Source: Actinomycetes bacterium (GTDB lineage Bacteria; Actinomycetota; Actinomycetes; Jiangellales; Jiangellaceae). Taken from it: a DNA stretch of 37,495 bases. The position numbers were made by a program, and so were the translations under genes. Positions within the stretch are counted from its first letter, which is position 1; every line of letters starts with the position of its first letter. The stretch is taken from the NCBI GenBank assembly GCA_021793295.1, contig JAJYTA010000023.1, positions 1-37,495 of the forward strand, written 5' to 3'. Below, in pieces: positions 7,572-37,495 of this stretch. The notes beneath the pieces are model-generated. The model ran no database searches, was not told the origin of the DNA, and was given only the letters and a program-made list of their open reading frames with translations.

Positions 7572-8870
7572 TCAGGCCCGGTTCGACACCGACGGTCGCT
7601 GGGCTAGGTGGTCGATCAACCAGTCGCCGGACAACCGGGCGACTTCATCCAGTGCGCCGGGCTCTTCGAACAGGTGTCCGGCGCCGTCGACCACCTCGAG
7701 CCGCTTCGGCCCGCTCAATTGCTCCAGCGCCTGCCGGTTCAGGTCGAGTACCACTTCGTCGCGCCCGCCCACGATCAGCAAGGTGGGCGCACTGACCTGT
7801 CGCAGGGCGTTCCCGGCGAGATCCGGGCGCCCGCCGCGCGACACCACGGCACTGACCTGGTCCGCGGCGCGGGCCGCACAGATCAGCGCGGCCGCGGCGC
7901 CGGTGCTCGCGCCGAAGCAGCCCAACGGCAGCCCAGCGGTCGAGGCCTGATCGCTGAGCCACTCGCGGGCCAGGTCGAGCCGGTCGGCCAGGAGCTCGAT
8001 GTCGAAGCGCAGGCTGCCGGTTGCGGCGTCCTGCAGTTCCTCGGTCTCGGTGAGCAGGTCCATGAGCAGCGTCGCGAGCCCGCGGCGGCGCAGGGCCCGG
8101 GCCACGTGGCGGTTGCGGGGGCTGTTGCGGCTGCTTCCGCTGCCGTGCGCGAACAACACCACGCCCACCGGGTCCGGAGGGCTCTCCAAGTCGCCGTACA
8201 CACTGCCGCCGCCGGGCACGGCGATCTCGGCCTGCCGGGGTCGCCGGGTGGCCAGCAGCGCCACCACCTGCTCGTCGCTGGTCTGGGTGAAGTTCTCATA
8301 CCACGAGCCGATCGAGCCCATGCCAGGTTGCGACTCCACCGCGATGACCTGGTCGGCGATGCCCGTCAAACGGCGGGCGGTCTCGGGCGGGCACACCGGG
8401 ACCGCGAGGATCAGCCGCTGTGGCCGGTGTCGCCGTAGCGCGCGTAGGGCGGCTTCGGCGGTGACGCCGGTGGCCAGGCCGTCGTCGACCAGGATGACAT
8501 CGCGATCTTCGAGGTCGGGCAGGTCAACGGTGCCGCGGTAGGTCTCGACCCTGCGGTTCAGTTCGCGGCGTTCAGCCGCGGCCAACGCACGCATCCGGGC
8601 ACCGCTGATCCCGAGCCGGCGGGCATCACGGGTCTCGATGATCAGGTCGTCGCCCTCGGCGATGGCGCCGATACCGAACTCCGGCTGACCGGGTGCGCCG
8701 ATCTTGCGGGCGACGAAGACTTCCAGCGGCGCACCCAAGCGGTCGGCGACATGCGCGGCGACCGGGACGCCGCCACGCGGCAGCGCCAGCACGACGGGCC
8801 GATCGAAAGGTTTGCCGCTGAGCTTGTCGGCCAGGCGGCGACCTGCGTCGTCACGGTCTCGGAACGTCAT
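7572..8870 (-). CDS. Phosphoribosyltransferase-alpha/beta hydrolase fusion protein
   Basis: A 432-residue two-domain protein. Residues 1-215 are a type I phosphoribosyltransferase fold with PRGGVPVA (31-38) and the PRPP-loop VILVDDGLATGVTAEAAL (125-142). Residues 220-432 are a dienelactone-hydrolase-like alpha/beta hydrolase with nucleophile S322 in GASTG, D371 in GGRDE and H399 in GAGHLFEE. Similar phosphoribosyltransferase proteins, alone or fused to hydrolases or esterases, occur in actinobacteria, for example in the mycobacterial dormancy regulon. The reaction is not established. ATG 8870 is preceded by GGAG at suitable distance. It lies 51 bases behind transketolase and is probably in one operon with it. 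Confidence 0.85.
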   Translation of the reverse strand: MTFRDRDDAGRRLADKLSGKPFDRPVVLALPRGGVPVAAHVADRLGAPLEVFVARKIGAPGQPEFGIGAIAEGDDLIIETRDARRLGISGARMRALAAAERRELNRRVETYRGTVDLPDLEDRDVILVDDGLATGVTAEAALRALRRHRPQRLILAVPVCPPETARRLTGIADQVIAVESQPGMGSIGSWYENFTQTSDEQVVALLATRRPRQAEIAVPGGGSVYGDLESPPDPVGVVLFAHGSGSSRNSPRNRHVARALRRRGLATLLMDLLTETEELQDAATGSLRFDIELLADRLDLAREWLSDQASTAGLPLGCFGASTGAAAALICAARAADQVSAVVSRGGRPDLAGNALRQVSAPTLLIVGGRDEVVLDLNRQALEQLSGPKRLEVVDGAGHLFEEPGALDEVARLSGDWLIDHLAQRPSVSNRA

Positions 8871-8921
8871 GGGTACTGTCTCCAAGGACGATCATGGCCG
8901 GCCGCCTCCGCGTGGACGGTG

Positions 8922-10772
8922 TCACTGCCCGAGCAGGTGCAAGACGGCCTCGTTGATTGCGGTGTGGTCGATGCCGGCCGCGCGCAGCTGTTCTGCGGGC
9001 GATGCGGAACCAGGCATGCCGTGCACGGCCAGCTTGAGCACGTGCGGCGAGGGCTCACCGTGAGAGAACACCTCGAGGACGGCGTCGCCGAGTCCGCCCT
9101 CAGGCCAGTGGTCCTCGATCGTGACGATGCGCCCGGTGTCCGCCGCGGCCCGGCGCAGGGTCTGTGCGTCGACCGGTTTGACCGAGTAGAGGTCGATGAC
9201 GCGCGCGGCCACGCCCTGGCGGGCGAGCTCGTCCGCAGCTTTCAGCGCCTCGTGCAGGGTGATGCCGGCCGAGACCAGGGTCACCTGGTCGGCCGGAGAC
9301 GAGCGCAACACCCGGCTGCCGGCGATGGAGAATTCCTCGTCCGCGCCGTACAGCACGGGCGTGTCACCGCGGGTGGTACGCAGGTAGGCGATACCCGGAT
9401 AGTCCGCCAGCCCCGCCACGAGCGCGGCCGCCTGATTGGCGCACGACGGATAGAGCACCACGCTGCCGTACACGGCTCGGAACGCGGCCAGATCCTCCAA
9501 CCCCATCTGCGACGGACCGTCCTCGCCGATCGACACGCCGCAGTGCGAGCCGATCAGGCGGAGATCGGCACCGCTCACCGCTGCCATCCGGACGAAGTCG
9601 TGTGCCCTGGTCAGGAAGGCGGCGAACGTCGCCACGTACGGAATCCAGCCACGGCTTTGCATCCCGACGGCCGCGGCCAGCATCTGCTGCTCGGCGATGT
9701 AGAACTGGAAGAACCGCTCCGGATGCGCATCGGCGAAGAACTGCATCCGGGTGGAGTCGGCGACCTCGGCGTCCAACCCGACCACGTCGGGCCGAGCGGT
9801 GCCGAGAGCAGCCAGCGCCTCGCCGAACGCGGTCCGCGTCGCCACCTCGGTGCCCACCTCGTATTCCGGCAGCTTGATGGCTGAAGCGGTGCCGAAGTCG
9901 TGCGGCCGCGTGCCGGTCTGCGGTGGCGACACCGTGACCCGCAGGTCGCTCGGCCCGCCGAGTTCCGCGATGGCGTCATCGGCTTCGGCCACCGGCTTAC
10001 CGTGCTTGCCTTCTTGGTCGGCGACGGCGGCCACGCCGGCGCCCTTGACGGTCCGGGCGAGGATCGCCGTCGGCCGGTCGGACTGCACCGCCTGTGTGTA
10101 CGCCTGATCGATCTCGTTCACGTCGTGGCCGTCGATCTCGATGGTGTTCCAGTCGAAGGCGCCGATGCGGCGGGCGTAGGCCGCGGTGTCCCAGCCGTGT
10201 CGGGTGGGTCCACGCTGGCCGAGCCGGTTCACGTCGACGATGGCGACGAGGTTGTTCAGCCGTTCGTAGCCGGCATGCTCGAAGGCCTCCCACATCGATC
10301 CCTCGGCGAGCTCGCTGTCGCCGCAGAGGACCCAGACCCGGTACGGCAGCTGATCGAGGAACTTGCCCGCCATGGCCATGCCCACGCCGAACGGGAGCCC
10401 CTGGCCGAGGGAACCGGTGGCGACGTCGACCCACGGCAGCCGTGGAGTGGGGTGACCCTCGAGCCGGCTGCCGAGCGTGCGGAAGGTCAGCAATTCCTCG
10501 TCGGTGATCGCGCCGGCGGCTTTGTACAGCGCGTACAGCAACGGCGACGCGTGGCCTTTGGAGAAGACCAGGTGGTCGTTGTTCGGCTCGTCCGGGTTGT
10601 CGAAGTCGTACCGCAGATGGCGGGCGAACAGCGTCGCCATCAGGTCCGACGCCGACATCGACGACGTGGGGTGACCCGATTCGGCGGCGGCGGCGCAACG
10701 CACGGCGTCGACCCGCAGCTGTCGCCCCAGCTCGGTGATGTTCAGCTCTGGGCTCAGGCTCTGGTTCGTCAC
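8922..10772 (-). CDS. tkt: Transketolase, short type
   Basis: A 616-residue full transketolase on one chain, shorter than the usual 660-700. The thiamine-diphosphate region reads CGDSELAEGSMWEA, with S replacing the second G of the usual GDG, followed by NLVAIVDVNRLGQ. The N-terminal histidine region (SGHPTSS, FSKGHASPLLYAL) and the pyrimidine-binding domain with FFQFYIAEQQM and ATFAAF are intact. It transfers two-carbon units in the pentose phosphate pathway. The start GTG at 10772 has no ribosome site, but a GGGTAC element ends 9 bases upstream, as in the leaderless-looking genes nearby. The phosphoribosyltransferase fusion gene follows. The GDS form appears to be a subfamily trait and not necessarily a defect. 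Confidence 0.88.
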   Translation of the reverse strand: MTNQSLSPELNITELGRQLRVDAVRCAAAAESGHPTSSMSASDLMATLFARHLRYDFDNPDEPNNDHLVFSKGHASPLLYALYKAAGAITDEELLTFRTLGSRLEGHPTPRLPWVDVATGSLGQGLPFGVGMAMAGKFLDQLPYRVWVLCGDSELAEGSMWEAFEHAGYERLNNLVAIVDVNRLGQRGPTRHGWDTAAYARRIGAFDWNTIEIDGHDVNEIDQAYTQAVQSDRPTAILARTVKGAGVAAVADQEGKHGKPVAEADDAIAELGGPSDLRVTVSPPQTGTRPHDFGTASAIKLPEYEVGTEVATRTAFGEALAALGTARPDVVGLDAEVADSTRMQFFADAHPERFFQFYIAEQQMLAAAVGMQSRGWIPYVATFAAFLTRAHDFVRMAAVSGADLRLIGSHCGVSIGEDGPSQMGLEDLAAFRAVYGSVVLYPSCANQAAALVAGLADYPGIAYLRTTRGDTPVLYGADEEFSIAGSRVLRSSPADQVTLVSAGITLHEALKAADELARQGVAARVIDLYSVKPVDAQTLRRAAADTGRIVTIEDHWPEGGLGDAVLEVFSHGEPSPHVLKLAVHGMPGSASPAEQLRAAGIDHTAINEAVLHLLGQ

Positions 10773-10820: not shown

Positions 10821-12305
10821 TCAGGATCCGTCCGAGGCAGCCTCTGGTTCAGCGGTGGCCAGGACCTCGCCGTCGGCATCCAACGCCTCGACGGCCACAT
10901 ACGGCTCATCCGGGACCTCGGCGGAGGTCTCGAACCCGTCGCGTTCGACGGTGGCGACTTCGGTGGCGCTGTCGGCATCGGCGCCGGCGAGGAACCGCCA
11001 CGACGCCACGTCGGTCGCGCCGTTCCAGCTCACCCAGGCCGTGCCGTCCTCGACCACCATGGCCGGCGGTTCGCTCGGTTGCCCACGCCAGGGAAATCGG
11101 TAGGCGCGGTAGCTCTGGCCTCCGCTGAACTGCCAGTCGGTCAGCAACTCGCCGTCCGCGGTGTACTCGGAGTAGAAGGGCTCGGAGCCCCAGCCGACGA
11201 CGACGTTGCCGTTCTCACGGACCTGCAGGTTGCCCTGGCTCGGCGCCAGCCGCCCATCGGGAGGCAGGTACTCGGTGACCACGCGGGCGGTCATGGTCTC
11301 GGTGTCCACATCGAGGCGCATCCCGCGGGACTCCTCGCCGACAGCGGGCGAGCTTTCGTTGTCGAACAGCGTGATGGTGCCGTCGGGTTGGCGCTGGGCG
11401 TCGTGTTGCCAGGCGAAGACCGCATCGTCGTCCATCTCGAAGTCGCTGGCCGAACCGCCGAGCGTCCAATCGACCTCGCCGGTGCGCCGGTCGATCCGGT
11501 AGATGGCGTGGGTACTGCGCGCCGAGGCGAGCAGGTGGTCACCGTCTTCGGTGACGGAGTTGATGTGGAAGTAGTCGAACGGCTGTTCCTTGCTGCCGTC
11601 CTGCTTCTCGCGATACTCGAACTTGTTCAGCGTCTCGGACAGCTCGACGTGGTCCAGCGCGCTCCACTCCCACAGGACCTCGCCGGTGGCGATGTCGATC
11701 TCCTGGATGACGCCGTCGAGGACGTAGCCGTCCCGCGGGCCGTCGAGCTCGGTGAGGTCCTGGCCGCCGACGGTGGGATAGCTGACCAGGAACGCGGTGC
11801 CGTCATCGGTGATGGTCATCTCGTGCAGGTCGGCCTTGGTCCCCTTCGTGGTGACCGTGGCGATCTCTTCATACGAGGTGTCCAAGATGACGAACTCACC
11901 GATGCCGTAGCCCTGCTCCCTACTCTCCCCGCGCCAGTACGTGAGCACCGGCTCGCCCTCATACTGCTGCACGCGGAAGTCGTAGCTCTTCCCGTCGGTG
12001 TCCTGGATCCACACCGGCTCGCCCTCGGCGTCGGCGATGAGCAGGGAGTTCATCGGTGACTCCTCGCCCTTGGGCGCCACGAGCATGAGGTCGTCGTCGG
12101 CCGGGTCCACCTGCCCGGACGTCTCGACTTCGATCAGCGGGGGCGTCAGCTCCGGCCGTGTGACGAATTCCGCCGGGGCACCGACGTGGGGTTCCTCGGT
12201 CGGCGACGACGCGGCGGGCTCGTCGTCCTGGCAGGCAGCGGCGGTCAAGGCGAGTGCTGCGGCGCCGACGGTGGCGGCTCGCAGGGGGGAACGTTGGCGT
12301 CTCAT
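10821..12305 (-). CDS. Secreted arylsulfotransferase (ASST) family protein
   Basis: A 494-residue exported protein. The N-terminus MRRQRSPLRAATVGAAALAL is followed by TAAAC25, a lipobox-like site that would anchor it as a lipoprotein; the lipobox is weak because -3 is alanine. The body is a beta-propeller-type protein with recurring turns such as LHEMTITDDGTAFLV, FDYFHINSVTEDGDHLLASAR, WTLGGSASDF and WQHDAQRQPDGTITLFDNE. These correspond to the Arylsulfotran_2 family, which includes sulfotransferases and many uncharacterised secreted relatives. The conserved histidines (LHEM, DYFHIN, WQHDAQ) are present. ATG 12305 is the start. The gene ends 48 bases before the transketolase start, which has its own candidate promoter. 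The biological substrate is unknown. Confidence 0.8.
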   Translation of the reverse strand: MRRQRSPLRAATVGAAALALTAAACQDDEPAASSPTEEPHVGAPAEFVTRPELTPPLIEVETSGQVDPADDDLMLVAPKGEESPMNSLLIADAEGEPVWIQDTDGKSYDFRVQQYEGEPVLTYWRGESREQGYGIGEFVILDTSYEEIATVTTKGTKADLHEMTITDDGTAFLVSYPTVGGQDLTELDGPRDGYVLDGVIQEIDIATGEVLWEWSALDHVELSETLNKFEYREKQDGSKEQPFDYFHINSVTEDGDHLLASARSTHAIYRIDRRTGEVDWTLGGSASDFEMDDDAVFAWQHDAQRQPDGTITLFDNESSPAVGEESRGMRLDVDTETMTARVVTEYLPPDGRLAPSQGNLQVRENGNVVVGWGSEPFYSEYTADGELLTDWQFSGGQSYRAYRFPWRGQPSEPPAMVVEDGTAWVSWNGATDVASWRFLAGADADSATEVATVERDGFETSAEVPDEPYVAVEALDADGEVLATAEPEAASDGS

Positions 12306-19295: not shown

Positions 19296-19973
19296 TCAGG
19301 GCAACTTCCAATCGACCGGCGGCAGCCCTGTGTCCTGCAGCAAGGCGTTTGCGCGGCTGAACGGCCGGGAGCCGAAGAATCCGTTGCGAGCTGACATCGG
19401 GCTCGGGTGGGCGGATTCGATGCACGGAATGTTATGAAGAAGTGGCCGAAGGTTTCTCGCATCGCGTCCCCAAAGAATGGCGACGAACGGCGTGGGACGG
19501 TTGACGAGGGCTCGGATGGCCTGTTCGGTCACCTGCTCCCATCCCTTTCCCCGGTGTGACGCCGGCGAACGCGGCGCGACCGTGAGGGCGCGGTTGAGCA
19601 GAAGCACGCCGTTGTCCGCCCACGGCGACAGATCGCCCGTGCTCGGCATCGGATGACCGAGGTCGGACACGTACTCCTGGAAGATGTTGACCAAGCTCGG
19701 GGGTAGCGGGCGTACGTGCGGCGCGACGGAGAAGCTCAAGCCGACGGCATGGCCGGGCGTCGGATAGGGATCCTGCCCGACGATCAGCACGCGTACGTCG
19801 TCGAACGGCTGGGTGAAGGCCCGCAGGACGTTGGGGCCGGCGGGCAGGTAGCTGCGTCCGGCGGCGAGCTCGGCGCGCAGAAACTCGCCCATCTCCGCGA
19901 TCTTTCCCGCGACGGGCTCCAAAGCCCGGGCCCATCCGGGTTCCACGAGTTCGTGCAGTGGTCGGGCGGTCAT
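19296..19973 (-). CDS. ung: Uracil-DNA glycosylase, family 1
   Basis: A 225-residue family 1 uracil-DNA glycosylase that removes uracil from DNA. The catalytic motif is [11 protein letters not shown] with D68; the YP form in place of YH is the usual actinobacterial version. The motif [10 protein letters not shown] and the C-terminal [18 protein letters not shown] loop are intact. ATG 19973 begins [10 protein letters not shown]. The start is only 16 bases from the start of the divergent G6PDH gene. Together with UdgX and the HhH-GPD protein it gives three base-excision type proteins in about 20 kb. Confidence 0.95.
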
Positions 19974-19989
19974 GGCGCACACTGTATCG

Positions 19990-21381
19990 ATGGGTGATCC
20001 ACCGACACGGAGTCCGGCCGTCAACACGCTGCTGATCCTCGGGGGCCACGGTGACCTCGCGACGCGATACCTGCTACCGGCAGCAGCGGAACTCATCGAC
20101 GCCGGCTTGTTCCCGGCCCGGCTGCGGATCGTGGCCGTCGACCGCGCCGAGATCGACACGGCCGACTACCGCGATCACGTCGTCGACGAACTGCGCCAGC
20201 ACGCCCCACACCTGCCCGAGCGCACTCGGGCCGAGCTGTGCTCGCGGCTGGATTACCGGCCTGGCAGCGCCACCGAGGCCGGCGACCTCCGCGCCGCGGT
20301 GGCCGGGTTGGACGGAGCGATCGCGGTCTACCTCGCGCTGCCCAACGCGGTGTTCCATGACACCATCGCGTCGCTGGGCGAGGTCGGCCTGCCGCCGGGC
20401 AGCCGGCTGGTCGTGGAGAAGCCGTTCGGCGTCGACCAGGCTGATGCACAGCAGCTCAACGCATTGATCCGGCAGGAGTTCAGCGAGGATCACGTCTTCC
20501 GCATCGACCACGTCCTCGGCGAGCAGATCGTCCTCGACGTGCTCGGCTTGCGGTTCGGCAACCGGCTGTTCGAATCCGCCTGGACCGCCGAGCACATCGA
20601 ATCGGTGGACATCGTCTTCGACGAGACCATCGCGCTCGAGGGCCGCGCGGGATACTACGACCACGCGGGCGCGCTGCGTGACATGATCCAGAACCACTTG
20701 CTGCAGATGCTCGCCGTGGTCGCCATGGAGCCGCCCACCGAACTGAACGAGCGCGAGTTGCGTGACCGCAAGGCCGACGTGTTGCGGGCGGTACGGCCAC
20801 CCGAGCCGGCACGGATGCGCGAAGCGTCGCGCCGGGCCCGCTACAGTGCCGGACGGTCTCCGGACGGCTCGGCCGTACCGGCTTATGTCGACGAACCCGA
20901 CGTCGACGCCGATCGGGCCACCGAGACCTACGCCGAGGTGACGTTCAGCATCCACAACGTGCGATGGGCCGGCGTGCCGTTCCGGTTGCGCACCGGCAAG
21001 GCACTCGGCGCGGATCGCCGTGAGATCGTCGTCCGGTTCCGGCCGCCGAATCACCAGCCGTTCGACAACCGAGGCGCTGTCGAGCAGTTGCGGTTCACCA
21101 TGGGGCCGGACTCCATCCGCTTCGACGTCAATCTGAACGGCGCCGGCGACCCGGCGGAGTTGCAGTCGCAGGCGTTCGTGGCCGACGTGGGCGAGCAGCG
21201 TCTGCCTTCCTACAGCCGGCTGCTGCGCGAGGTCGTCGCGGGCGATACCACGCTGTCGGTCCGCGGCGACGAGGCCGAAGAGTGCTGGCGCATCGTCGAG
21301 CCGGTGCTCGCGGCATGGACGGCAGGAGAGGTCCCGCTGGAGGAGTACCCGGCCGGATCGGACGGACCGGGGGCGCGCTGA
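19990..21381 (+). CDS. zwf: Glucose-6-phosphate dehydrogenase-like protein with altered active site
   Basis: A 463-residue G6PDH-family protein. The NADP-binding loop is [15 protein letters not shown] (17-31), the conserved EKPFG is at 143-147, and the C-terminal half carries [15 protein letters not shown] and RTGKAL. The substrate-binding motif RIDHYLGKE reads R171-IDHVLGEQ179. The base H174 is kept, but the tyrosine is V175 and the lysine that binds the sugar phosphate is E178. It may therefore use another substrate or be weakly active. ATG 19990 is the chosen start; there is no ribosome site and the divergent ung start is 16 bases away. No opcA, gnd or pgl gene is adjacent. Confidence 0.8.
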
Positions 21382-21390
21382 ACCGGCGCG

Positions 21391-22983
21391 TCAGCTCGTC
21401 CCGGCCACCAGCGGTTCGAGCACGACGTCCGGGTGCCGGCGCTGCACGGAGGACAGTCGCCACTTGTCCGGGAACAACGCGAGCAGGGCGCCGTCGCGGC
21501 GCTCGGCGACCTCGACCCCGGCTTCACCGTTCAGTAGCGCCACGTGCTCGGCCGCGGTCCGCCTGGCCAGCGAATAGGGCAGCGAGTCCAGCGCGACAGG
21601 CACGCCGAACTCCTGCTTCAACCGGGCGGTGGCCACCTCGAATTGCAACGGGCCGACCGCGGCCAGCATCGGCGCGCCATCGCCCCGGCGGTCGGAGTGC
21701 AGGATCTGCACCACGCCCTCTTCGGCCAACTGCTCGATGCCGCGCCGGAACTGCTTGGCTTTGCCGGTGTCGGTGGTGCGCGCGGTGGCGAAGTGTTCGG
21801 GTGCGAAACTCGGCATGCCCGGGAACGTGACGGGGGCGTCGTGGTCGTGCAACGTGTCGCCCACGGTGAGCGCCGAGGCGTTGACGAGCCCGACGATGTC
21901 GCCGGGGAAGGCGATGTCGACGGTTCCGCGCTCGCGGCCCAGCATGGCGCGCGCGTACTTGGTGGCGAACGGCTTTCCGGTGGCGGCATGGGTGACGACG
22001 GTCCCGCGTTCGAATCGCCCGGAGCACACTCGCACGAACGCGAGCCGGTCGCGGTGAGCCGGATCCATCCCGGCCTGGACCTTGAAGACCAGTCCGGAGA
22101 ACGGGGCGTCGACGGGGCGGGGCGAGCCGTCGACGTCCTCGCGAGCTGACGGCGCCGGGGCCAGCTCGAGCAGGGTGTTCAGCAAGGCACGCACGCCGAT
22201 GTTCGACACGGCCGCTCCGAAGAGCATCGGGGTGGAGTACCCGGCGCGGAACGACTCGTCGTCGACGGGGTCGAGCAGGGCGAGCTCGTCCAGAGCAGCG
22301 CTCCACTCGTTCGGGTACGCCGCCTTCGCCTCTCCCGCGGAGAGCACGGACTCATCGGCGATCCGGCTACCGCCGGGGGCGCGCTCGAACGTGATCATCG
22401 TCTCGGTGCCGCGGTCGAGCAGGCCGTGGAACGTCCCCGCCTCACCCACGGGCCAGTTGACCGGCGTCGCGTGCAGGTCGATGCGTTCGGCCAGTTGGTC
22501 GACGAGGTCGAGTGCGTGCAGGCCGGGGCGGTCCCACTTGTTCACGAAGGTGATGACGGGCACGCCGCGGTGGCGGCACACGTCGAACAGTTTCAGCGTC
22601 TGCGGCTCGAGGCCTTTCGCGGCGTCGAGGAGCATGACGGCGCAGTCGACCGCGGCGAGCACGCGGTAGGTGTCCTCGGAGAAGTCGGCGTGGCCGGGGG
22701 TGTCGAGCAGGTTGATCACGTGTCCGTGGTATTCGAACTGCAGCGCGGCCGAGGTGATGGAGATGCCGCGAGCCTGCTCCATCTCCATCCAGTCCGAGAT
22801 CACCGATTTACGGCCGGACTTGCCGTGCACGGCGCCCGCCTCACCGATGACTCGGGCATGCAGCGCCAGCGCCTCGGTCAGGGTGGACTTACCGGCGTCC
22901 GGGTGGCTGATGACGGCGAACGTGCGACGGCGGCGGGCCTCGGCGGCGATGTCCGCCGGGGCGGATGCGGGTGCTGTGACCAT
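21391..22983 (-). CDS. prfC: Peptide chain release factor 3
   Basis: A 530-residue translational GTPase of normal RF3 length. G1 is HPDAGKST (27-34), G2 lies in the RGISITSAA switch, G3 is DTPGHADF (94-101) and G4 is NKWD (148-151). RF3 recycles RF1 and RF2 from the ribosome after peptide release. ATG 22983 is the start. A -10 box TAGGAT (minus strand, 22994-22999) ends 10 bases before it, and a 12-bp tandem repeat covers the -35 region and beyond. It ends 9 bases from the convergent G6PDH stop; no terminator is visible there. Confidence 0.95.
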   Translation of the reverse strand: MVTAPASAPADIAAEARRRRTFAVISHPDAGKSTLTEALALHARVIGEAGAVHGKSGRKSVISDWMEMEQARGISITSAALQFEYHGHVINLLDTPGHADFSEDTYRVLAAVDCAVMLLDAAKGLEPQTLKLFDVCRHRGVPVITFVNKWDRPGLHALDLVDQLAERIDLHATPVNWPVGEAGTFHGLLDRGTETMITFERAPGGSRIADESVLSAGEAKAAYPNEWSAALDELALLDPVDDESFRAGYSTPMLFGAAVSNIGVRALLNTLLELAPAPSAREDVDGSPRPVDAPFSGLVFKVQAGMDPAHRDRLAFVRVCSGRFERGTVVTHAATGKPFATKYARAMLGRERGTVDIAFPGDIVGLVNASALTVGDTLHDHDAPVTFPGMPSFAPEHFATARTTDTGKAKQFRRGIEQLAEEGVVQILHSDRRGDGAPMLAAVGPLQFEVATARLKQEFGVPVALDSLPYSLARRTAAEHVALLNGEAGVEVAERRDGALLALFPDKWRLSSVQRRHPDVVLEPLVAGTS

Positions 22984-25342: not shown

Positions 25343-27313
25343 TCACCGGGTGGTTCGATCGCGGGCCGTCGCGGGCAGCCAGACCCGCATCTCCGACGGT
25401 CCGCGTTCGGCCCACCGGTGGTACGGCACGAGCACGATCTCAGCGGCTTCGGCGCAACCCGGGGCGCCGTCTGCAGCCGCCGCGTACGGCCAGGACGGTT
25501 CAGCGTCGGTCTCGGGACCGACGAGGCCCCGGACCAGCACACCGCCGTCGCCGTCCATCGGCGCATGAGAGGTGTCGACGGTCACGTCGTCCAGCCGCGT
25601 CCCGGGCGGCAGGTCTACGGATTCCGCGCAGTACACCAGCGGGCCGCGCTCCACCGCGACACAGCCGCGGACGGCGTCGACGCGCCGGTCCGGCCGGGTG
25701 AACCGCGGAGTCACCGGGAGATGCAGCCGGATCTCCTCGCCGGGGACCAACTCACGGTCGACCACCGCCGTGCCCGGCGCGACGTCGTGGCGCCGTTCCC
25801 CCTCCTCCAGCATCGCGCCGTGCGCCCATGACGGCACCCGCAGCCGCAACGCCACCGCCTCTGCGGGCGCCTGCCGCACCCTGACGACCACCAGGCCGTC
25901 GTCCGGATACGACGTCGCGACCTCGAGCCCCAGCGTGCGGCCGCAGCCCAGATCCGCCGAGATCCGCATCCCCGCGTACTGGAGCAGTGTCAGCTCGCCT
26001 TCGCCTGCGGTGGCCGCGTAGCTGTGCCACGTCGCCAGTGTCCGCGCGACGTTGGTCGGGCAGCACGACACGTCGAACCAAGCCGCGCGCGCCCCGCTCT
26101 CCGCGCGCAGGCTCACCCTGTCCTCGCCGGGCCAGTTGCCGGCGACGCGCTGGTGCAGCGGGTTCGCGTAGAAGAACGCTCGGCCGTCGGAGCGCGGCGA
26201 GGTCGCAATGACGTTCAGGAACGTGCGCTCGATCAGGTCCGCGTAGCGGATGTCGCCGGTGGCGAGGTAGAGCCGCCACGACACCATCACCGAGGCGACG
26301 CCCGCACAGGTCTCACAGTAGGCTCGGTCCGGCGGGAGCTCCCAGTCCGCGCCGAACGCCTCGTCCTGGTGCCGCGAGCCCATCCCCCCGGTCAGGTACG
26401 TCTGCCGCGCCACGGCGTGCGCCCACTGCCGTCGCACCGCGTCGAGCAGCGACGCGTCGTCGTACTCGACGGCGACGTCGACCGCTGCGGCGGCGAGATA
26501 CAACGCGCGCACGGCGTGCCCGCGCCACGTGTCCGCCTTCCGGACCGGCACGTCGTCCTGGAAGTAGGCGCGGCCCAGCGGGATATCGCGTAGCGTTCCG
26601 TGCCCGCGACGGTCCACGAACAGCCGCGCTTGTTCCAGATACCTTTCCTCGCATAGCGCACGGCCCAGCTCGGCGAGCCCGATCTCGATCTCCGGATGCC
26701 CGCAGACGGCGCGCAGCCCGTCGTCGCCGAACGTCTCGCAGACGTGATCGGCGGCCCGCCGCGCCACCCGCACCAGCTCGTCCTCGCCGGTGGTGCGCAG
26801 CCGCGCGACCGCGGCTTGCAGCAGATGCCCGGTGCAGTACAGCTCGTGTCCCATCTCCAGGTCGCTGTACCGCGGCTGCTGGTGTGCGTGGCCGTAGCAG
26901 GTGTTGAGGTAGCCGTCCGGGTCCTGGGCGGGCGCAATGCGCGCGGTCAGCCGGCGTACGGCCTCGTCGGCAGCGGGGTTCCCGGACCGGCCGAACTCCC
27001 AGCTCAACGCCTCGATGAGCTTGTACACCTCGGAGTCGGAGAACGACCAGCCGGGGCGGTCCGGTCCGGTGGTTCCGGCCGCCACCCGGTCGAAGTTCGC
27101 CAGCCACCCGAGCCGTTCCATCCAGTGCTCGCAGTGCTCGAACGTCGCTGCGGCGTTGGTGGCCTGGAGCGTCGCCCAGAACCCGCTGGTCAGCTGGACC
27201 TCGTTCAGCCCGAGCGGGCGTTGCCGTCCGAGCGAGGGGACGACCGGTCGCCCGCCGGTGGGGTCGGTGCCGGTCGACGTGCGGTGCGCAGTCACGGTGC
27301 TCCTTGCGGTCAT
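25343..27313 (-). CDS. GH127 beta-L-arabinofuranosidase
   Basis: A 656-residue enzyme of glycoside hydrolase family 127, (alpha/alpha)6 barrel with beta-sandwich C-terminus. The zinc-thiolate active site characteristic of the family is present: YCETCAG near residues 333-339 supplies Glu and Cys, and FDVSCCPTN near 413-421 supplies the two neighbouring cysteines, one being the nucleophile in the characterised Bifidobacterium enzyme. Without a signal peptide it is cytoplasmic and would release L-arabinofuranose from imported oligosaccharides. Its ATG overlaps the GH31 stop as ATGA; a GTG at 27295 behind AAGGAG is an alternative start. It is the last gene of the lacI-led operon. Confidence 0.92.
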   Translation of the reverse strand: MTARSTVTAHRTSTGTDPTGGRPVVPSLGRQRPLGLNEVQLTSGFWATLQATNAAATFEHCEHWMERLGWLANFDRVAAGTTGPDRPGWSFSDSEVYKLIEALSWEFGRSGNPAADEAVRRLTARIAPAQDPDGYLNTCYGHAHQQPRYSDLEMGHELYCTGHLLQAAVARLRTTGEDELVRVARRAADHVCETFGDDGLRAVCGHPEIEIGLAELGRALCEERYLEQARLFVDRRGHGTLRDIPLGRAYFQDDVPVRKADTWRGHAVRALYLAAAAVDVAVEYDDASLLDAVRRQWAHAVARQTYLTGGMGSRHQDEAFGADWELPPDRAYCETCAGVASVMVSWRLYLATGDIRYADLIERTFLNVIATSPRSDGRAFFYANPLHQRVAGNWPGEDRVSLRAESGARAAWFDVSCCPTNVARTLATWHSYAATAGEGELTLLQYAGMRISADLGCGRTLGLEVATSYPDDGLVVVRVRQAPAEAVALRLRVPSWAHGAMLEEGERRHDVAPGTAVVDRELVPGEEIRLHLPVTPRFTRPDRRVDAVRGCVAVERGPLVYCAESVDLPPGTRLDDVTVDTSHAPMDGDGGVLVRGLVGPETDAEPSWPYAAAADGAPGCAEAAEIVLVPYHRWAERGPSEMRVWLPATARDRTTR

Positions 27314-29313
27314 GCGGTCAGGGGGATGTCGGCACCCTCGCGGGTGAAGACGGGGATGCGGTCGAGCGGGCTGTCGACGTCACGCGTGCAGCCGCCGTCG
27401 ACGGCCTCGCCGGTCGCGGCGTCGATCCAGCGCGTTCCGGCGGGCAGGTAGACCCTGCGGGAGAGTTGTCCGGGATGTGTCACCGGCGCGACCAGGATGT
27501 CCGGACCGAACAGGAACTCGTCGTCGACGTCCCATGCGCGCGGATCCGCGGGATGGTCCACGAACAACGGACGCATCGGCGGCAGCCCGGTCCGCGACGC
27601 GGCCGTCATCTGCTCGTGGATGTACGGACGCAGCCGCTCACGCAGGTGCAACAGGCCGGAGATGATCTCGTAGGCCTCGTCGCCGTACGACCAGATCTCG
27701 TTCGGGCCGCCGGTCTGCGCGTACGACGTCGGCGTCCGGGGCTCGCGGTCTCCGTGCAGCCGGAACAGGGGGCAGAACACGCCGTACTGGAACCAGCGGA
27801 TCATCAGTTCCCGGTAGGCGGGGTCGCGGGCGTCGCCGCCGTGGAATCCGCCGATGTCGGTGGTCCACCAGGGGATGCCGGAGATCGCGAGGTTCAGCCC
27901 GGCGCGCAGCTGCCGGCGCAGTGAGTCCCAGGTGGCCGGGATGTCGCCCGACCACACCGCGGCGCCGTACTTCTGGGAGCCGGCCCAGGCGGAGCGGGAC
28001 AGCAACACGGTCGGTTCCCGCCCGGATGCGGCCATCCCCTCGGCGAACAGCCGGGCGTTGTCCCGCGGGTAGATGTTCGCGACCTCCGCCCCGGGACCCG
28101 CGTACATGGTCAGGTTGCCCGGATGGGCGGGGTTCAGCTCGGGTTCGGACGCGTCCAGCCAGAAGACCCGGATGCCGTGATCGAGATAGTTGCGGCGGAT
28201 CAGCTCCCAGACGTACTCGCGCGTGGCGGGGTTGCTGGGGTCGTAGAACGCGACCGGCATCGGGGTGGCCATGCCCTTGTCCTGGATGGTCTGGTGGTAC
28301 TCGACGCCCTGGTCGGAGCCGACCAGCATGCCGCGGTCACGGAAGTCGGCGAAGTTCTCCGACAGCGGCGAGACGGTGGGCCACACCGAGACCATGAGCT
28401 CGACGCCCATCTCCGCCAGCTCCGCCACCATCGCCCGTGGATCCGGCCACTCCGCGGGGTCGAAGCGGTAGTCGCCCATCGCGGACCAGTGGAAGTAGTC
28501 GGTGACGATGACCGACAGCGGGAGCCCGCGGCGCCGGTACTCCCGCGCGACGCCGAGCAGCTCCTCCTGGTCGAGGTAGCGCAGCTTGCTCTGCCAGAAC
28601 CCGCTCGCCCATGCGGGCAGGTCCGGGGCGTGGCCGGTGGCGTCGGCGTAGCGGGCGAGTATCCCGGCCGGCGTCGGCGCCGCGGTGATCCAGTAGTCGA
28701 TCTCCCGCGCCTGGCCTGCTTGCCAGCGGGTGCCGTTCTCGGCGAACTCGACCCGTCCGACGGCGGGGACGTTCCACAGCAGCCCGTAGCCGCGGCTGGA
28801 GAGCACGAACGGGACGGACACCTCGGCGTTGCGCTGAACCAGGTCGAGGGTCAGCCCCTTGAGGTCGAGCCGGCCGTGCGTGCGCTGGCCCAGGCCGTAG
28901 AGCCGCTCGTCCGGATACGCGGCGAACCGCTGGTGGATCTCGTACGCGCCGGACCGGTTGCCCTGGAAGTACCGCGCCCCGGGCAGCCAGAAGTGCTCCC
29001 GGCTCTCGGCGAGGAGCTCGGCGCCGGTGCTCGTCCGCGAGAACGTCAGCAGCGGCTCCGGGTAGGCGGCGTCGCGGTCGAACGCCACGTCGACGGTGAG
29101 CTCGCCGTGCACGAAGCGCGCCGAACCGTCGCCGACGTCGACGGCCGGCGGGCCGGCCGCGGGCGCGGCGTCCAGCGCTCCGTGACTGTCCGGCGGGATC
29201 CGGTACTGCGCCGCGCGGACGCGGACGCTGTCCGTCCCCCAGGCCTCGATCGTCAGCACTTCGTGCCGGTGCCGGACCTCGAGGGCGGTCGCCGTGGGGT
29301 GGAACGTGACCAT
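27310..29313 (-). CDS. GH31 alpha-xylosidase/alpha-glucosidase-like enzyme
   Basis: A 667-residue glycoside hydrolase family 31 protein. An N-terminal beta-sandwich with ERLYGLGQRTHGRLDLKG precedes the (beta/alpha)8 barrel. The barrel carries the nucleophile in FWLDASEPE (D near 386) and the acid/base in WSGD (D near 457). The DASEPE form is frequent in alpha-xylosidase-type members, but specificity cannot be fixed by eye. There is no signal peptide, so it acts in the cytoplasm. ATG 29313 follows GAGGAG at good distance. It is cotranslated with GH127 (ATGA overlap) and lies 43 bases behind the second permease. Confidence 0.9.
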   Translation of the reverse strand: MVTFHPTATALEVRHRHEVLTIEAWGTDSVRVRAAQYRIPPDSHGALDAAPAAGPPAVDVGDGSARFVHGELTVDVAFDRDAAYPEPLLTFSRTSTGAELLAESREHFWLPGARYFQGNRSGAYEIHQRFAAYPDERLYGLGQRTHGRLDLKGLTLDLVQRNAEVSVPFVLSSRGYGLLWNVPAVGRVEFAENGTRWQAGQAREIDYWITAAPTPAGILARYADATGHAPDLPAWASGFWQSKLRYLDQEELLGVAREYRRRGLPLSVIVTDYFHWSAMGDYRFDPAEWPDPRAMVAELAEMGVELMVSVWPTVSPLSENFADFRDRGMLVGSDQGVEYHQTIQDKGMATPMPVAFYDPSNPATREYVWELIRRNYLDHGIRVFWLDASEPELNPAHPGNLTMYAGPGAEVANIYPRDNARLFAEGMAASGREPTVLLSRSAWAGSQKYGAAVWSGDIPATWDSLRRQLRAGLNLAISGIPWWTTDIGGFHGGDARDPAYRELMIRWFQYGVFCPLFRLHGDREPRTPTSYAQTGGPNEIWSYGDEAYEIISGLLHLRERLRPYIHEQMTAASRTGLPPMRPLFVDHPADPRAWDVDDEFLFGPDILVAPVTHPGQLSRRVYLPAGTRWIDAATGEAVDGGCTRDVDSPLDRIPVFTREGADIPLTA

Positions 29314-29356
29314 GGGTGGTGCTCCTCGTGCAGAAGGGAGTGGCGGCGGTGCCGGG

Positions 29357-30175
29357 TCAGTCCTTGACGGCGCCGGCGGTGACGCCGCCGGCGACGTAGC
29401 GCTGCGCGACGACGAGCAGCACCGCGGCGGGGATGGACGCGACCACGGCGGTGGCCATGATCGAGTTCCACTGGGTCGTGTTGTTGCCGATGTAGCTGTA
29501 GATGCTCAACGTGATCGGGATCTTGTCGCCGTTGCGGTTGAGCGTCGAGGCGAAGATGAAGTCCGACCACGCCCACAGGAACGCGAACAGCGAGACGGTC
29601 AGCATCGCGTTCCTGCTGACCGGCAGGACCACCGACCGGAACGTGCGCCACGCCCCGGCGCCGTCGATCTTGGCCGCGTGCATCAGCTCCTGCGGGATCC
29701 CGGACATGAAGGCGGTGAACAGCAGCACACCGAACGGCACCGCGATGGTCGAGTCCGCGATGATCAGACCCCAGACGGTGTTCAGCCAGCCCAGCCGTAC
29801 GTAGATGGCGTAGAAGCCCATTGCCATCACCACGCTCGGGATCATCTGCGCCACCAGCAGCGTGAAGTTCAGCGGCCCTGCTCCCCAGGGCCGGAGCTTG
29901 GCGATGGCGAACCCGGCCGGCGCGGCGATCGCCAGCGTCAGCGCCACGCAGCCGAGGCCGATGCCGAGGCTCGTGGACAGCGCCGGCAGCTGCTGCGCAA
30001 ACACGTCGGTGAATCCTTCTGCCGTCGGATCCCATGGGAACCAGTGCGGGGGATCCGCGCGCATGTCGCTCGTCTTGGTCAGCGACACGTTGAACATCCA
30101 ATAGACGGGGAAGAGCATCAGCGCGGTGAACAGGATGCCCAGCGCCGTCTTCCACCAGGTACGTCGTGCCGTCAT
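29357..30175 (-). CDS. Sugar ABC transporter permease, MalG type
   Basis: A 272-residue permease with six membrane segments and the ABC-binding EAA-like loop, here MHAAKIDGAGAWRTFRSVVLP, characteristic of the MalG group of carbohydrate uptake (CUT1) systems. ATG 30175 overlaps the stop of the partner permease as ATGA. It works with the adjacent MalF-type permease and the lipoprotein binding protein. No ATPase gene is present in the operon, so a shared MsmK/MsiK-type ATPase elsewhere is expected. Confidence 0.92.
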   Translation of the reverse strand: MTARRTWWKTALGILFTALMLFPVYWMFNVSLTKTSDMRADPPHWFPWDPTAEGFTDVFAQQLPALSTSLGIGLGCVALTLAIAAPAGFAIAKLRPWGAGPLNFTLLVAQMIPSVVMAMGFYAIYVRLGWLNTVWGLIIADSTIAVPFGVLLFTAFMSGIPQELMHAAKIDGAGAWRTFRSVVLPVSRNAMLTVSLFAFLWAWSDFIFASTLNRNGDKIPITLSIYSYIGNNTTQWNSIMATAVVASIPAAVLLVVAQRYVAGGVTAGAVKD

Positions 30176-31188
30176 GTCCGCTCCTGCCGTCGCTGGAGGT
30201 ACAGATGAACGGACCCGAAGACCAGCGCGATGACGATGAGCAGGTTGCCGACCGTGGCGGCGGGCGAAAACTCCGGCTGGCCGGTGCCGAAGGCCTCGCG
30301 GTACGACCAGATCGCCAGCGTGGTCGACGAGTTGCCCGGGCCGCCGGTGGTCATGATCCAAATGACGTCGACGACCTTGAGCGTGTAGATCAACCCGAGG
30401 AGCAGCGTCACGGCCGACACGGGCCGCAGCAGCGGGAACGTGATCCGCCAGAACCGCTGCCAGACGGTCGCGCCGTCCAGCGCGGCCGCCTCGTAGAGGT
30501 CCTTGCTGATGTTCTGCAGCCCCGCGTAGAGGATCACCAGGTTGAACGGGATACCGAGCCAGATGTTGGCGATGATGACGGAGGTCAGCGCCCAGTCCGG
30601 GGAGGTCAGCCAGTTGATCTGGCCGATCCCGAACGACTCCAGCACCGAGTTCACGATCCCGTTCTCGCTGTTCAGCATCCACGACCACGTGGAGGCCGAG
30701 ACGATCAACGGCAGCAGCCACGGGATCAGGAACATCCCGCGCAGCAGCCCGGACAGCCGGAAGTTGTCGTGGAAGAACACCGCCAGGGCGAGGCCGATGG
30801 TGTACTGCGCGGCGATCGAGACGAACGTGAACAGCGCCGTGTTCCGCAGCGCCAGGCCGAACGCGTCCGACGTGACGACGTCCACGTAGTTGGCCAGGCC
30901 GAGGAACTCCGGGTTGCCCATGACGAACGCGCGTGGCGTGTAGTCATGCAGGCTGAGCTCGATGTTCCGGTACAGCGGATAGGCGTAGAAGATCGTCAGG
31001 TAGGCGAGCAGCGGAGCGATGAACGCGAACGCCGCCCACCGTGGCTCGCGTAGCCGGGACCTGCGTGCGGGGGCGGCCGGTGCGTCCGGCGGGGCGTTCG
31101 CCGGGCGGTCCGGCTGGCCGGGCGGCGTCGTCGCCACCCGGCCGTCGGACGCGCCGTCTCCGCTGGTCTTGGGGCTGGTGGATCTCAT
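30172..31188 (-). CDS. Sugar ABC transporter permease, MalF type
   Basis: A 338-residue permease with a proline- and alanine-rich N-terminal cytoplasmic stretch of about 45 residues, then six membrane segments and the loop LYEAAALDGATVWQRFWRITFP (EAA motif) that docks the ATPase. It belongs to the CUT1 MalF group. ATG 31188 follows AGGA. It is located 46 bases behind the binding-protein gene and overlaps the next permease. Confidence 0.92.
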   Translation of the reverse strand: MRSTSPKTSGDGASDGRVATTPPGQPDRPANAPPDAPAAPARRSRLREPRWAAFAFIAPLLAYLTIFYAYPLYRNIELSLHDYTPRAFVMGNPEFLGLANYVDVVTSDAFGLALRNTALFTFVSIAAQYTIGLALAVFFHDNFRLSGLLRGMFLIPWLLPLIVSASTWSWMLNSENGIVNSVLESFGIGQINWLTSPDWALTSVIIANIWLGIPFNLVILYAGLQNISKDLYEAAALDGATVWQRFWRITFPLLRPVSAVTLLLGLIYTLKVVDVIWIMTTGGPGNSSTTLAIWSYREAFGTGQPEFSPAATVGNLLIVIALVFGSVHLYLQRRQERT

Positions 31189-31234
31189 CTCACGGTTCCT
31201 CGTCCGGCTCGTGCGTGATACCCGCGCCGCAGGA

Positions 31235-32479
31235 TCACTCGGTCTCGGCCTCGGCGTTGGTCTGCGCTTCGGCCAGGGCCTCCTGCGGGCTCATCGAGCC
31301 GCTCAGGGCCTTCTGCACGGCCGTCCACAGCGCCTCGGAGATCTTCGGGTAGTCGATGCCGAGGTCGTCACTCGTGCGGCCCTTGGCGTTACGAACCGCT
31401 TCGACCCAGGGCTCGAGCGCGGCGTTCTGCGTCAGCAGCTCCTCCTGCGCGGCCTGCGTCGACGGGATGTAGTAGGCGAACGTGTTCGCGGTCTCGACGA
31501 GGCCCTCCGGCGTCGTCATGCACTCGACGATCTGGCTGGTGACGTCGTAACGGGCGTCATCCTCCTGGACCGGCGCGGTGATGAACTCGCCGCCGGTGGG
31601 CGTCTGCGCGACCCCGCCGTCCTGGCCGGGGATCTGGATGACGCCGGTCGGGAACTCGGCCTCGACGGCGGCGTTCACCTGCCAGGTGCCGTTCTCCGCG
31701 AACGCGAACCGCCCGGTGAGGAACTCCTCCCAGGTCGTGTTCTGGGAGTTGTTGATCACCGTGTTCGGCGCGTAGCCGGCGTCGAGCCACCCCTTCCACA
31801 GCTCGAGCGCCGCGACGGCCTCCGGGGAGTCGAGCTCACGCAGGTCGGCGCCTGCGCCCCAGAACCACGGCAGGAACTGGAACGAGCCCTCCTCGGTGCC
31901 GATGCCGGCGAACGTGATGCCCTCGTCGCCGTTCGCGACCACCTGCTCGAGCGCCGCGGTCAGCGACTGCCAGTCGGTGATCGACGCCGGGTCGACGCCG
32001 GCGGCGTCGAGGATCTGCTGGTTGTAATAGAGCGAGAGCGTGTTGGCGCCGATCGGGATGCCGTACGCGTCGCCGGCGACGACGCCCGCGTTCAGCAGAT
32101 TCTCGTCGAACCGGGAGGTGTCCAGGCCGAACTCCTCCATCGTGGTGAGCATGCCGGCATCGGCGAGCGTGGACACGGCGGGGTTGTCCAGCAGGATGAT
32201 GTCCGGCGACGTGCCCTCCTGGGCAGCCAGCAACGCCTGGTTGGTGAGCGCGGTGGTGTCGTAGGCGGTGCGCTCGATCGTCACGCCGGCCTCGTCGCCG
32301 CACGCGGAGACCCGTTGTGCCCAGTCCGACGAATCGTCGTGTTGCGGATACGGGTCCCACCAGGTGTAGGTGTCGCTGCCGGCCTGCGTGCTGTCGTCGG
32401 ATGACGAGCATGCGGCGAGCCCGGCCAGGCACAGGACGGCGGTTCCGGCCGCGCTCGCGGCACGGTTCGAGGGACGCAT
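31235..32479 (-). CDS. Sugar-binding lipoprotein of an ABC transporter
   Basis: A 414-residue extracellular solute-binding protein (family 1). The signal peptide ends in a clear lipobox, LAGLAAC24, so the mature protein is membrane-anchored. Family marks are DIILLDNPAVSTLADAGML, YGIPIGANTLSLYYNQQIL, the LELWKGWLDAGYAPN region and FAFAENGTWQV. It captures oligosaccharides for the two permeases. GGAGG lies 9 bases before ATG 32479; GTG 32482 immediately upstream is equally possible. It lies 28 bases behind the lacI-type gene and is likely cotranscribed with it. Confidence 0.92.
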   Translation of the reverse strand: MRPSNRAASAAGTAVLCLAGLAACSSSDDSTQAGSDTYTWWDPYPQHDDSSDWAQRVSACGDEAGVTIERTAYDTTALTNQALLAAQEGTSPDIILLDNPAVSTLADAGMLTTMEEFGLDTSRFDENLLNAGVVAGDAYGIPIGANTLSLYYNQQILDAAGVDPASITDWQSLTAALEQVVANGDEGITFAGIGTEEGSFQFLPWFWGAGADLRELDSPEAVAALELWKGWLDAGYAPNTVINNSQNTTWEEFLTGRFAFAENGTWQVNAAVEAEFPTGVIQIPGQDGGVAQTPTGGEFITAPVQEDDARYDVTSQIVECMTTPEGLVETANTFAYYIPSTQAAQEELLTQNAALEPWVEAVRNAKGRTSDDLGIDYPKISEALWTAVQKALSGSMSPQEALAEAQTNAEAETE

Positions 32480-32507
32480 CACGGTATTCCTCCTTGAATG
32501 GGATGGT

Positions 32508-33527
32508 TCAGGTGGGTGGAGCCGCGGTACTCCGGCGGTCGACGAGCTCGGGCGAGACCAACCGCACGACGTGCGGCTGTTTCCTGGCCTCCGGCGACTC
32601 GATCCGGCGGACGAGTTGGCGTATCGCCATCCGCCCGAGCCGGTCGGGTGCGCTCTCGATCGACGAGAACGGCAGCGAGAACGTGCGCGCGAACTCGTCG
32701 GAGTAGCGGCCGATGACGGACAAATCCGCGGGTGCGCTCAGCCCGCGGGCGTGCAGTACGGACGGCAGCGCGGCCGCTGCGGCCTCGTTGTTGAGCAGCA
32801 ACCCGGTGGCTTCCGGGTGCGTGTCCAGCAGGTCGTTGAGCAGTCGTCCGACGGCGGGCTGCTTGGAGTCGCCGAACACCGCGTGCAGCCTGACGCCGCG
32901 CAGGCTCGCCTGCTCCAGCGCCGCGTTCTGCAGCCGCCACACGTAGGCGCCACCCCGTTCGACGACGTGCTCGGGCTGCGAGACCAGGATCAGCTCACGA
33001 TGCCCGAGCCGGTACATGTGGTCGACCATCGTCCGGCCCGCTTCCTCGAAATCCAGGTCGAACACGTCGAGGCCGGAGCAGTTGCCGGGCAGGCCGACGA
33101 GCGCGCCCGGTTGCGGAGCGGCACGCAACGTGGACAGTCGCGGGTCGTCCTCGGCGACGTTGAGCAACACGACGCCGTCGACCATCCGGGAGTCGGTGAT
33201 CCGGCCGAGCGCGCGGGCGCCGTCGGCCTCGGTGACCAGCAGGATGTCGTAGCCGAGCTCGCGTGCCGCGTCAGAGACGCCGAGCATGTACTGCAACATG
33301 GCCGGGGCGAACTCGTCCTCGTGGAACTGTGCCAGCAACCCGATGACCATCGTCTTCGACGTCGCCAGTGCCCGGGCTCCCGCGTTCGCGGTGTATCCGA
33401 GCTCGACGACGGCGTCGTTCACCCGCTGTCGTACCTCCGCCGAGATCGTGCGCTTGCCGGACAGGGCGTACGACGCGGTGCTCCGGGATACCCCGGCCGC
33501 TCGCGCGACATCGCCGATCGTGACCAC
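32508..33527 (-). CDS. LacI-family transcriptional repressor
   Basis: A 339-residue regulator with the LacI helix-turn-helix at the very N-terminus (TIGDVARAAGVSRSTASYALSG) and hinge ALATSKT, followed by a periplasmic-binding-protein-like effector domain. The GTG start at 33527 has GAGGAG 7 bases upstream. A palindromic operator with the core CGAACCGGTTCG lies 20 bases before the start. A matching palindrome lies before the large glycosidase at 37412-37429, so it probably represses both its own operon and that gene until a sugar ligand binds. The ligand is likely an arabinose- or xylose-containing oligosaccharide. Confidence 0.92.
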   Translation of the reverse strand: MVTIGDVARAAGVSRSTASYALSGKRTISAEVRQRVNDAVVELGYTANAGARALATSKTMVIGLLAQFHEDEFAPAMLQYMLGVSDAARELGYDILLVTEADGARALGRITDSRMVDGVVLLNVAEDDPRLSTLRAAPQPGALVGLPGNCSGLDVFDLDFEEAGRTMVDHMYRLGHRELILVSQPEHVVERGGAYVWRLQNAALEQASLRGVRLHAVFGDSKQPAVGRLLNDLLDTHPEATGLLLNNEAAAAALPSVLHARGLSAPADLSVIGRYSDEFARTFSLPFSSIESAPDRLGRMAIRQLVRRIESPEARKQPHVVRLVSPELVDRRSTAAPPT

Positions 33528-37314: not shown

Positions 37315-37411
37315 CGTTGCTGCTCCTGGGTCGTCGCTCAGGTGGTCGTCGGTGCTCGTCCGTCCCTGTCCGAGCTCGTGCGTACTCCTTTCGTCGGACC
37401 GCGTCGACGGG

Positions 37412-37429
37412 TGTCGAACCGGTTCGACA
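37412..37429. promoter_or_regulatory. Perfect 18-bp LacI-type operator before the glycosidase
   Basis: TGTCGAACCGGTTCGACA is a perfect 18-bp palindrome, 97 bases upstream of the glycosidase ATG. It has the same core as the operator before the lacI-led operon. No clear -35/-10 pair was recognised between it and the window end (37430-37495). Confidence 0.85.
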
Positions 37430-37495
37430 GTGTGCGGAAACATCCCTTCGCGTGGATGGGTGTTTCGGGCGGGAAATGTCCTCGGTCGATTGTGG

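Follow-up and report, generated by a model that had tools for sequence, protein, structure and literature searches.

The window analysed here (the whole stretch of 37,495 nucleotides, contig JAJYTA010000023.1 of assembly GCA_021793295.1, family Jiangellaceae) carries a gene of the glucose-6-phosphate dehydrogenase (G6PDH) family whose signature motif reads RIDHVLGEQ instead of RIDHYLGKE, and the question raised by this locus is which substrate the encoded protein would oxidise. The first-pass annotation had described the replacement of Tyr by Val and of Lys by Glu, with the His kept, and had suggested a changed substrate. The motif was found exactly as claimed, and since Haloactinopolyspora alba shares Val and Glu at these sites, the change is neither a matter of chance nor a sequencing error. 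The gene is treated below as a putative free-glucose 1-dehydrogenase, a paralogue within the G6PDH family.

Gene, domains and predicted fold

The gene occupies positions 19972–21381 of the forward strand, where the longest open reading frame has 469 amino acids and no internal stops; the likely start is the ATG at 19990 or a later codon, and the earlier numbering of His174 and Glu178 matches a start at this ATG. RIDHVLGEQ lies inside this intact frame at 20500–20526 (+), with the R codon at 20500–20502. The Pfam domains G6PD_N (PF00479) and G6PD_C (PF02781) cover nearly the full protein, with scores of 120.7 and 269.6 bits against curated cut-offs of 22.1 and 27. The protein passed the NCBIfam model NF009492 ('glucose-6-phosphate dehydrogenase' equivalog; 519 bits, cut-off 428) and was below the cut-off of the older zwf equivalog TIGR00871 (376 versus 400.6).

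A structural model was obtained with AlphaFold2 from an alignment of 21 sequences (20 members of the clade defined below and one canonical enzyme). Its mean pLDDT was 92.7 and its pTM 0.91, and the best Foldseek match was 7xhl, the G6PDH of Zymomonas mobilis (TM 0.91, 37% identity). A G6PDH fold is confidently predicted, and the catalytic motifs are intact, in support of the first-pass annotation.

The dinucleotide-binding loop GGHGDLAT (20041–20064, +) fits the fingerprint GxxGDLx given in an excerpt of PMC11448927. In the second-strand region VAVDRAEI (20131–20154, +), an Asp precedes the Arg that aligns by eye with Arg50 of the Escherichia coli enzyme, for which the roles of K18 and R50 have been described, Arg50 being the NADP-selecting residue (PMC4807051, in excerpt). 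This position was considered as an indicator of cofactor preference; it varies across the clade, and only NAD(P)+ is claimed.

Phosphate-site and catalytic residues

According to the excerpted text of a 2024 review of G6PDH structures (PMC11448927), and in human numbering, the phosphate is held by His201, Tyr202 and Lys205 and is also bound by Arg365 and Gln395, the catalytic dyad is formed by Asp200 and His263, and Lys171 positions substrate and coenzyme. The window protein resembles canonical bacterial and human G6PDH (zwf, EC 1.1.1.49) in its domains, fold and catalytic dyad, as well as in the motif EKPFG (20416–20430, +), which keeps the equivalent of Lys171. Within RIDHVLGEQ, Asp200 and His201 are kept, and Tyr202, Lys205 and Glu206 are replaced by Val, Glu and Gln, respectively. 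The segment RDMIQNH (20677–20697, +) keeps Asp258 and the general base His263. A 12-residue segment at 20989–21024 (+) keeps Lys360 and has Asp at the position of Arg365, in a loop where the alignment is less sure, and Gly is found at the position of Gln395 in LRFTMGPD (21088–21111, +). The dyad and Lys171 expected of a functional G6PDH are present, but the window protein differs from the canonical enzymes in having Val, Glu, Asp and Gly instead of the phosphate ligands Tyr202, Lys205, Arg365 and Gln395. The last two losses were not mentioned in the first-pass annotation.

The same sites were compared among 74 clade members, in a residue table that omits the small loci L052, L053, L054, L055 and L129, identical sequences, the two short pieces of the broken copy L170 and the short second piece in L066. 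Tyr202 is absent from all of them, with Phe in 72 and Val in two, the window protein and that of H. alba. Lys205 is absent from 59, the site holding Lys (15), Met (15), Arg (13), Asn (10), Leu (8), Trp (5), Glu (3), Asp (2) and Val, Ser or Gln (one each), that is, eleven residue types including ten different replacements; Glu occurs only in the window protein, H. alba and L142. For the two loop columns, in which the alignment is less certain, Arg365 was found in 2 of 74 (Pro in 24, Asp in 22, Lys in 12, and others) and Gln395 in none. Asp200, His201, His263, Lys171, Glu239, Asp258 and Lys360 are kept in all 74. Among the canonical enzymes, Tyr202, Lys205 and Arg365 are each present in 31 of 31, and Gln395 in 30, the remaining sequence being gapped at this site. 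Judged by these residues, the clade appears to have lost most of its grip on the 6-phosphate, with its catalytic residues kept. The change from Lys to Glu, which the first-pass annotation had linked to a possible change of substrate, is one of ten replacements found in the whole clade.

Further divergent actinobacterial paralogues (L161–L169, L172–L176 and L178) also have Phe for Tyr in part but lie outside the clade. In the set of 16 sequences chosen by eye from the tree listing, which comprises these and L087, Lys205 is kept in 15, Tyr202 in eight, and Phe is found in seven, so the replacement of Tyr by Phe alone is no marker of phosphate loss. Two of them, L164 and L165, in which Lys205 is kept, adjoin an NAD-type 6-phosphogluconate dehydrogenase (gnd_rel).

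Phylogeny and distribution

The tree, built from 121 proteins, contains a split (support 0.901) that sets 74 sequences, including the window protein, apart from the other 47. The nearest relative is the protein of H. alba (L057), which is 62% identical and reads VLAER. The clade extends over Actinomycetes, Acidimicrobiales and one MAG labelled Gemmataceae. Within the family of the window organism, 22 genomes were searched, its own included, and the clade gene was detected in three of them (G000, G001 and G009); its distribution there is patchy, and it can be lost or gained. NCBIfam G6PDH models match all 21 sequences scored (20 clade members and one canonical). The class search detected the paralogue in 26 genomes, each of which has at least two PF02781 places, although in G123, a genome that is 80% complete, the second place is a fragment and the canonical copy is uncertain.

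Two further observations concern individual members. The copy L170 (G039:C1:7116237-7117614), in a genome of 9.2 Mb, lies in two frames with an internal stop and is apparently a broken gene. In Microbacterium kyungheense (L065 and L066), a pair formed by a gene of glycoside hydrolase family 15 (GH15) and the paralogue occurs twice on one contig, with near-identical flanks.

Genomic context of the window gene

The genome of the window organism (4.67 Mb, 320 contigs) has two PF02781 places. The second, on contig C254, is a canonical zwf reading RIDHYLGKET, located in a cluster encoding Tkt, Tal, Pgi, Zwf, OpcA and 6-phosphogluconolactonase, names that were assigned by eye from the sequences without a family search. 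The window gene is therefore a paralogue, and the second, canonical zwf whose search had been proposed as a check is present.

The direct neighbours of the window gene are a divergent gene for uracil-DNA glycosylase (ung, 19296–19973, −) and a convergent gene for peptide chain release factor 3 (prfC, 21391–22983, −), and H. alba shows this gene order too. It differs from canonical zwf in having no opcA, pgl or tkt as a direct neighbour, and neither a GH15 nor a gluconokinase gene lies beside it. The earlier statement that pentose phosphate partners are not adjacent is correct for these direct neighbours. Some 9 kb upstream, however, there is a transketolase gene (8922–10772, −), which at this distance would be a tentative candidate for a pathway partner; its 616-residue product scored 927 bits with NCBIfam NF004559 and is 29% identical to the operonic transketolase of the same genome. 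A GH15 gene (contig C235), a gluconokinase and a 6-phosphogluconate dehydrogenase are encoded elsewhere in the genome, away from the window gene.

Between the window gene and that of H. alba, dN/dS was 0.40, compared with 0.10–0.21 for eight control genes, canonical zwf (0.128) being one of them. The window gene is under purifying selection, but a looser one, and evolves faster than its neighbours.

The remainder of the window contains several other genes on the reverse strand. The product of 7572–8885 (−) is a fusion of two domains, a phosphoribosyltransferase and an alpha/beta hydrolase of the dienelactone type, and 10821–12305 (−) encodes a protein of the Arylsulfotransferase (ASST) family. 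The region 25343–33527 (−), with GH127, GH31, sugar ABC transporter, solute-binding protein and LacI regulator genes, looks like a plant-polysaccharide utilisation locus; its GH127 protein matched the aceric acid hydrolase model below the cut-off. A protein of 1263 residues with Laminin_G_3 and Big_4 domains and a weak CBM35 match is encoded at 33652–37443 (−).

Gene neighbourhoods in the clade

Neighbourhoods were counted for 70 clade loci, with genes called mechanically, so that the neighbours depend on the caller. The count omits L113 (the same place as L057), L066 (the second copy on the L065 contig), L003 and L087 (canonical), and the members with flanks of 1.5 kb (L052–L055, L129, L132, L133, L137 and L138). 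In 21 of the 70 loci the immediate neighbour is a GH15 gene of the trehalase/glucoamylase type, located upstream on the same strand in 11, divergent in seven and convergent in three; one was assigned by Pfam (PF00723 with a TREH_N domain) and the rest by BLAST clustering. Two of these GH15 proteins were compared with NCBIfam, and trehalase models were closest, with scores far below the cut-offs. The named records among the 21 comprise one of Streptosporangiales, one of Acidimicrobiales and several of Microbacteriaceae. In nine loci (L060, L088, L089, L090, L093, L141, L143, L146 and L157) the end of the GH15 gene and the beginning of the dehydrogenase gene form a 4-nt overlap of stop and start, ATGA or GTGA, which is the usual sign of translational coupling. 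Four of the 15 clade members that keep Lys205 also lie beside GH15. Canonical zwf loci differ: a GH15 gene was found beside none of 27 canonical loci (flank 1.5 kb on each side in 26 of them), and an opcA match was found beside all 27 but in none of the 70 clade loci.

Other neighbours also relate to sugar metabolism. A gluconokinase gene (TIGR01313, cut-off 113.75) lies directly downstream in L090 (156 bits, 67 bp) and L097 (127 bits, 143 bp), and in the genome of the latter (G051) it is the only gluconokinase found. Co-occurrence across genomes gave no support: a gluconokinase is present in 20 of 26 genomes that have the paralogue and in 21 of 30 that lack it, hardly a difference in frequency. 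An IlvD/Edd-type sugar-acid dehydratase gene is located 2 bp downstream in L094 (PRK13017, 949 bits), a sugar porter gene lies downstream in L101 (11 bp) and L103 (14 bp), and a lactonase-like protein, with low scores, is encoded 1.2–1.6 kb upstream in L099 and L101.

A different arrangement is found in four operons, L151, L152, L153 and L155, which all contain a GH65 gene and in which genes for a trehalose-phosphatase, a ROK kinase and a beta-phosphoglucomutase-like protein each occur in three of the four. The GH65 gene directly precedes the paralogue in L152, L153 and L155, and lies two genes upstream in L151, with a sugar porter gene in between. The order in L152 (347–6757) is sugar porter, beta-phosphoglucomutase-like protein, ROK glucokinase-like protein, trehalose-phosphatase, GH65 and dehydrogenase. 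This gene set could make glucose 6-phosphate, against a simple free-glucose reading. The paralogues of all four operons have Trp at the phosphate-Lys site, which in L152 would count against glucose 6-phosphate as the substrate.

Proposed reaction and alternative explanations

The window gene probably, though with restrained confidence, encodes an NAD(P)-dependent dehydrogenase that would oxidise free beta-D-glucose, or a closely related free aldose, to the 1,5-lactone. We infer that it shares the activity of its clade, and its putative substrate, product and cofactor are likewise taken from the clade. The strongest evidence on the substrate is given by the neighbourhoods of its relatives (GH15, gluconokinase and dehydratase), to which the window itself does not contribute. 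The changed substrate proposed in the first-pass annotation is retained in that a free sugar appears to be the best-supported substrate, but the Lys to Glu replacement is one part of a clade-wide loosening of phosphate binding.

From their conservation, and with the sugar-side residues intact, the Asp200–His263 dyad and Lys171 would act as in G6PDH, with hydride transfer from C1, and in the window protein a carboxylate at the former ammonium site would repel phosphate. Beta-glucose is the anomer used by G6PDH. GH15 enzymes are described as inverting in an excerpt of PMC12446779, and the translationally coupled hydrolase of the relatives would therefore release beta-glucose. The dehydrogenase would convert it with NAD+ or NADP+ into gluconolactone, and the resulting gluconate could be converted by gluconokinase into 6-phosphogluconate or pass to a sugar-acid dehydratase.

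Mammalian H6PD, an enzyme of the endoplasmic reticulum, is fused to a lactonase. This relative of G6PDH accepts both free glucose and glucose 6-phosphate for oxidation, is described as not selecting between NAD+ and NADP+ (PMC4470864, in excerpt), and is a precedent for the proposed activity; it differs in being eukaryotic and in also taking glucose 6-phosphate. The same reaction as the one proposed, from free glucose to gluconolactone with NAD(P)+, is carried out by the SDR-type glucose 1-dehydrogenases such as Bacillus GDH (excerpt of PMC3891874), which have an unrelated short-chain fold of about 250 residues.

Several observations stand against the proposed oxidation of free glucose. All 74 members retain His201, another of the phosphate ligands; 15 of 74 keep Lys205, four of them beside GH15; neither GH15 nor gluconokinase adjoins the window gene, which evolves faster than its neighbours; gluconokinase is hardly commoner in genomes that have the paralogue; and the L152, L153 and L155 operons carry genes that would make glucose 6-phosphate. 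The protein might thus still be a G6PDH, with a phosphate site that is weaker or built in another way (for example from His201 and clade-specific residues), and this isoenzyme would open a further way into the pentose phosphate or Entner–Doudoroff pathway. For this reading speak the three operons, the Lys205 kept in 15 of 74 relatives and the Arg found in 13, the score above the NF009492 cut-off, and the Phe-for-Tyr paralogues outside the clade, which have retained Lys and of which L164 and L165 adjoin 6-phosphogluconate dehydrogenase. It is considered unlikely: of the five phosphate ligands given in the excerpt of PMC11448927, four are lost or variable in the clade, the Lys site is occupied in many members by Glu, Asp, Trp, Met or Leu, the coupling with GH15 implies free glucose, and a canonical zwf is already present in the genome.

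The eleven residue types at the Lys205 site would also be compatible with another free aldose or the reducing end of an oligosaccharide (xylose, arabinose, maltose or kojibiose), depending on the subclade. The dehydratase beside L094 is of the dihydroxy-acid/pentonate type, and the polysaccharide locus about 4 kb downstream of the window gene, with GH127, GH31 and sugar ABC transporter genes at 25–33 kb, could supply pentose. This locus is, however, separated from the window gene by prfC and two other genes, and the GH15 and GH65 neighbours of the relatives favour glucose, so that such a substrate is regarded as quite improbable. Lastly, the raised dN/dS and the confinement of Val at the Tyr site to two proteins, and of Glu at the Lys site to these and L142, could mean that the copy of the Haloactinopolyspora lineage is decaying or has no catalytic function, but the frame is open in both species, all catalytic residues are kept, the fold is confidently predicted, dN/dS is well below 1 and the gene order is conserved, making decay very improbable.

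Significance for the family

Extending the free-glucose reading to the whole clade is a tentative step, held possible but not quite probable: the clade may be a family of glucose 1-dehydrogenases that has escaped recognition and whose origin lies in the loss of the phosphate site from a G6PDH. Together with GH15 and gluconokinase or gluconate dehydratase, it would form a hydrolytic, non-phosphorylated route from trehalose or alpha-glucan into gluconate metabolism. A search of the open-access literature found no paper on the clade, on its coupling with GH15 or on a bacterial member of the G6PDH family acting on free glucose.

If this reading is true, genes automatically annotated as G6PDH would be glucose dehydrogenases, and for many actinobacteria the number of G6PDHs assumed in modelling NADPH supply and the pentose phosphate pathway would be too high by one. 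The clade would also provide a natural series of replacements at Lys205 for studying the shift from a phosphorylated to a free substrate, and new NAD(P)-dependent glucose dehydrogenases could be drawn from it.
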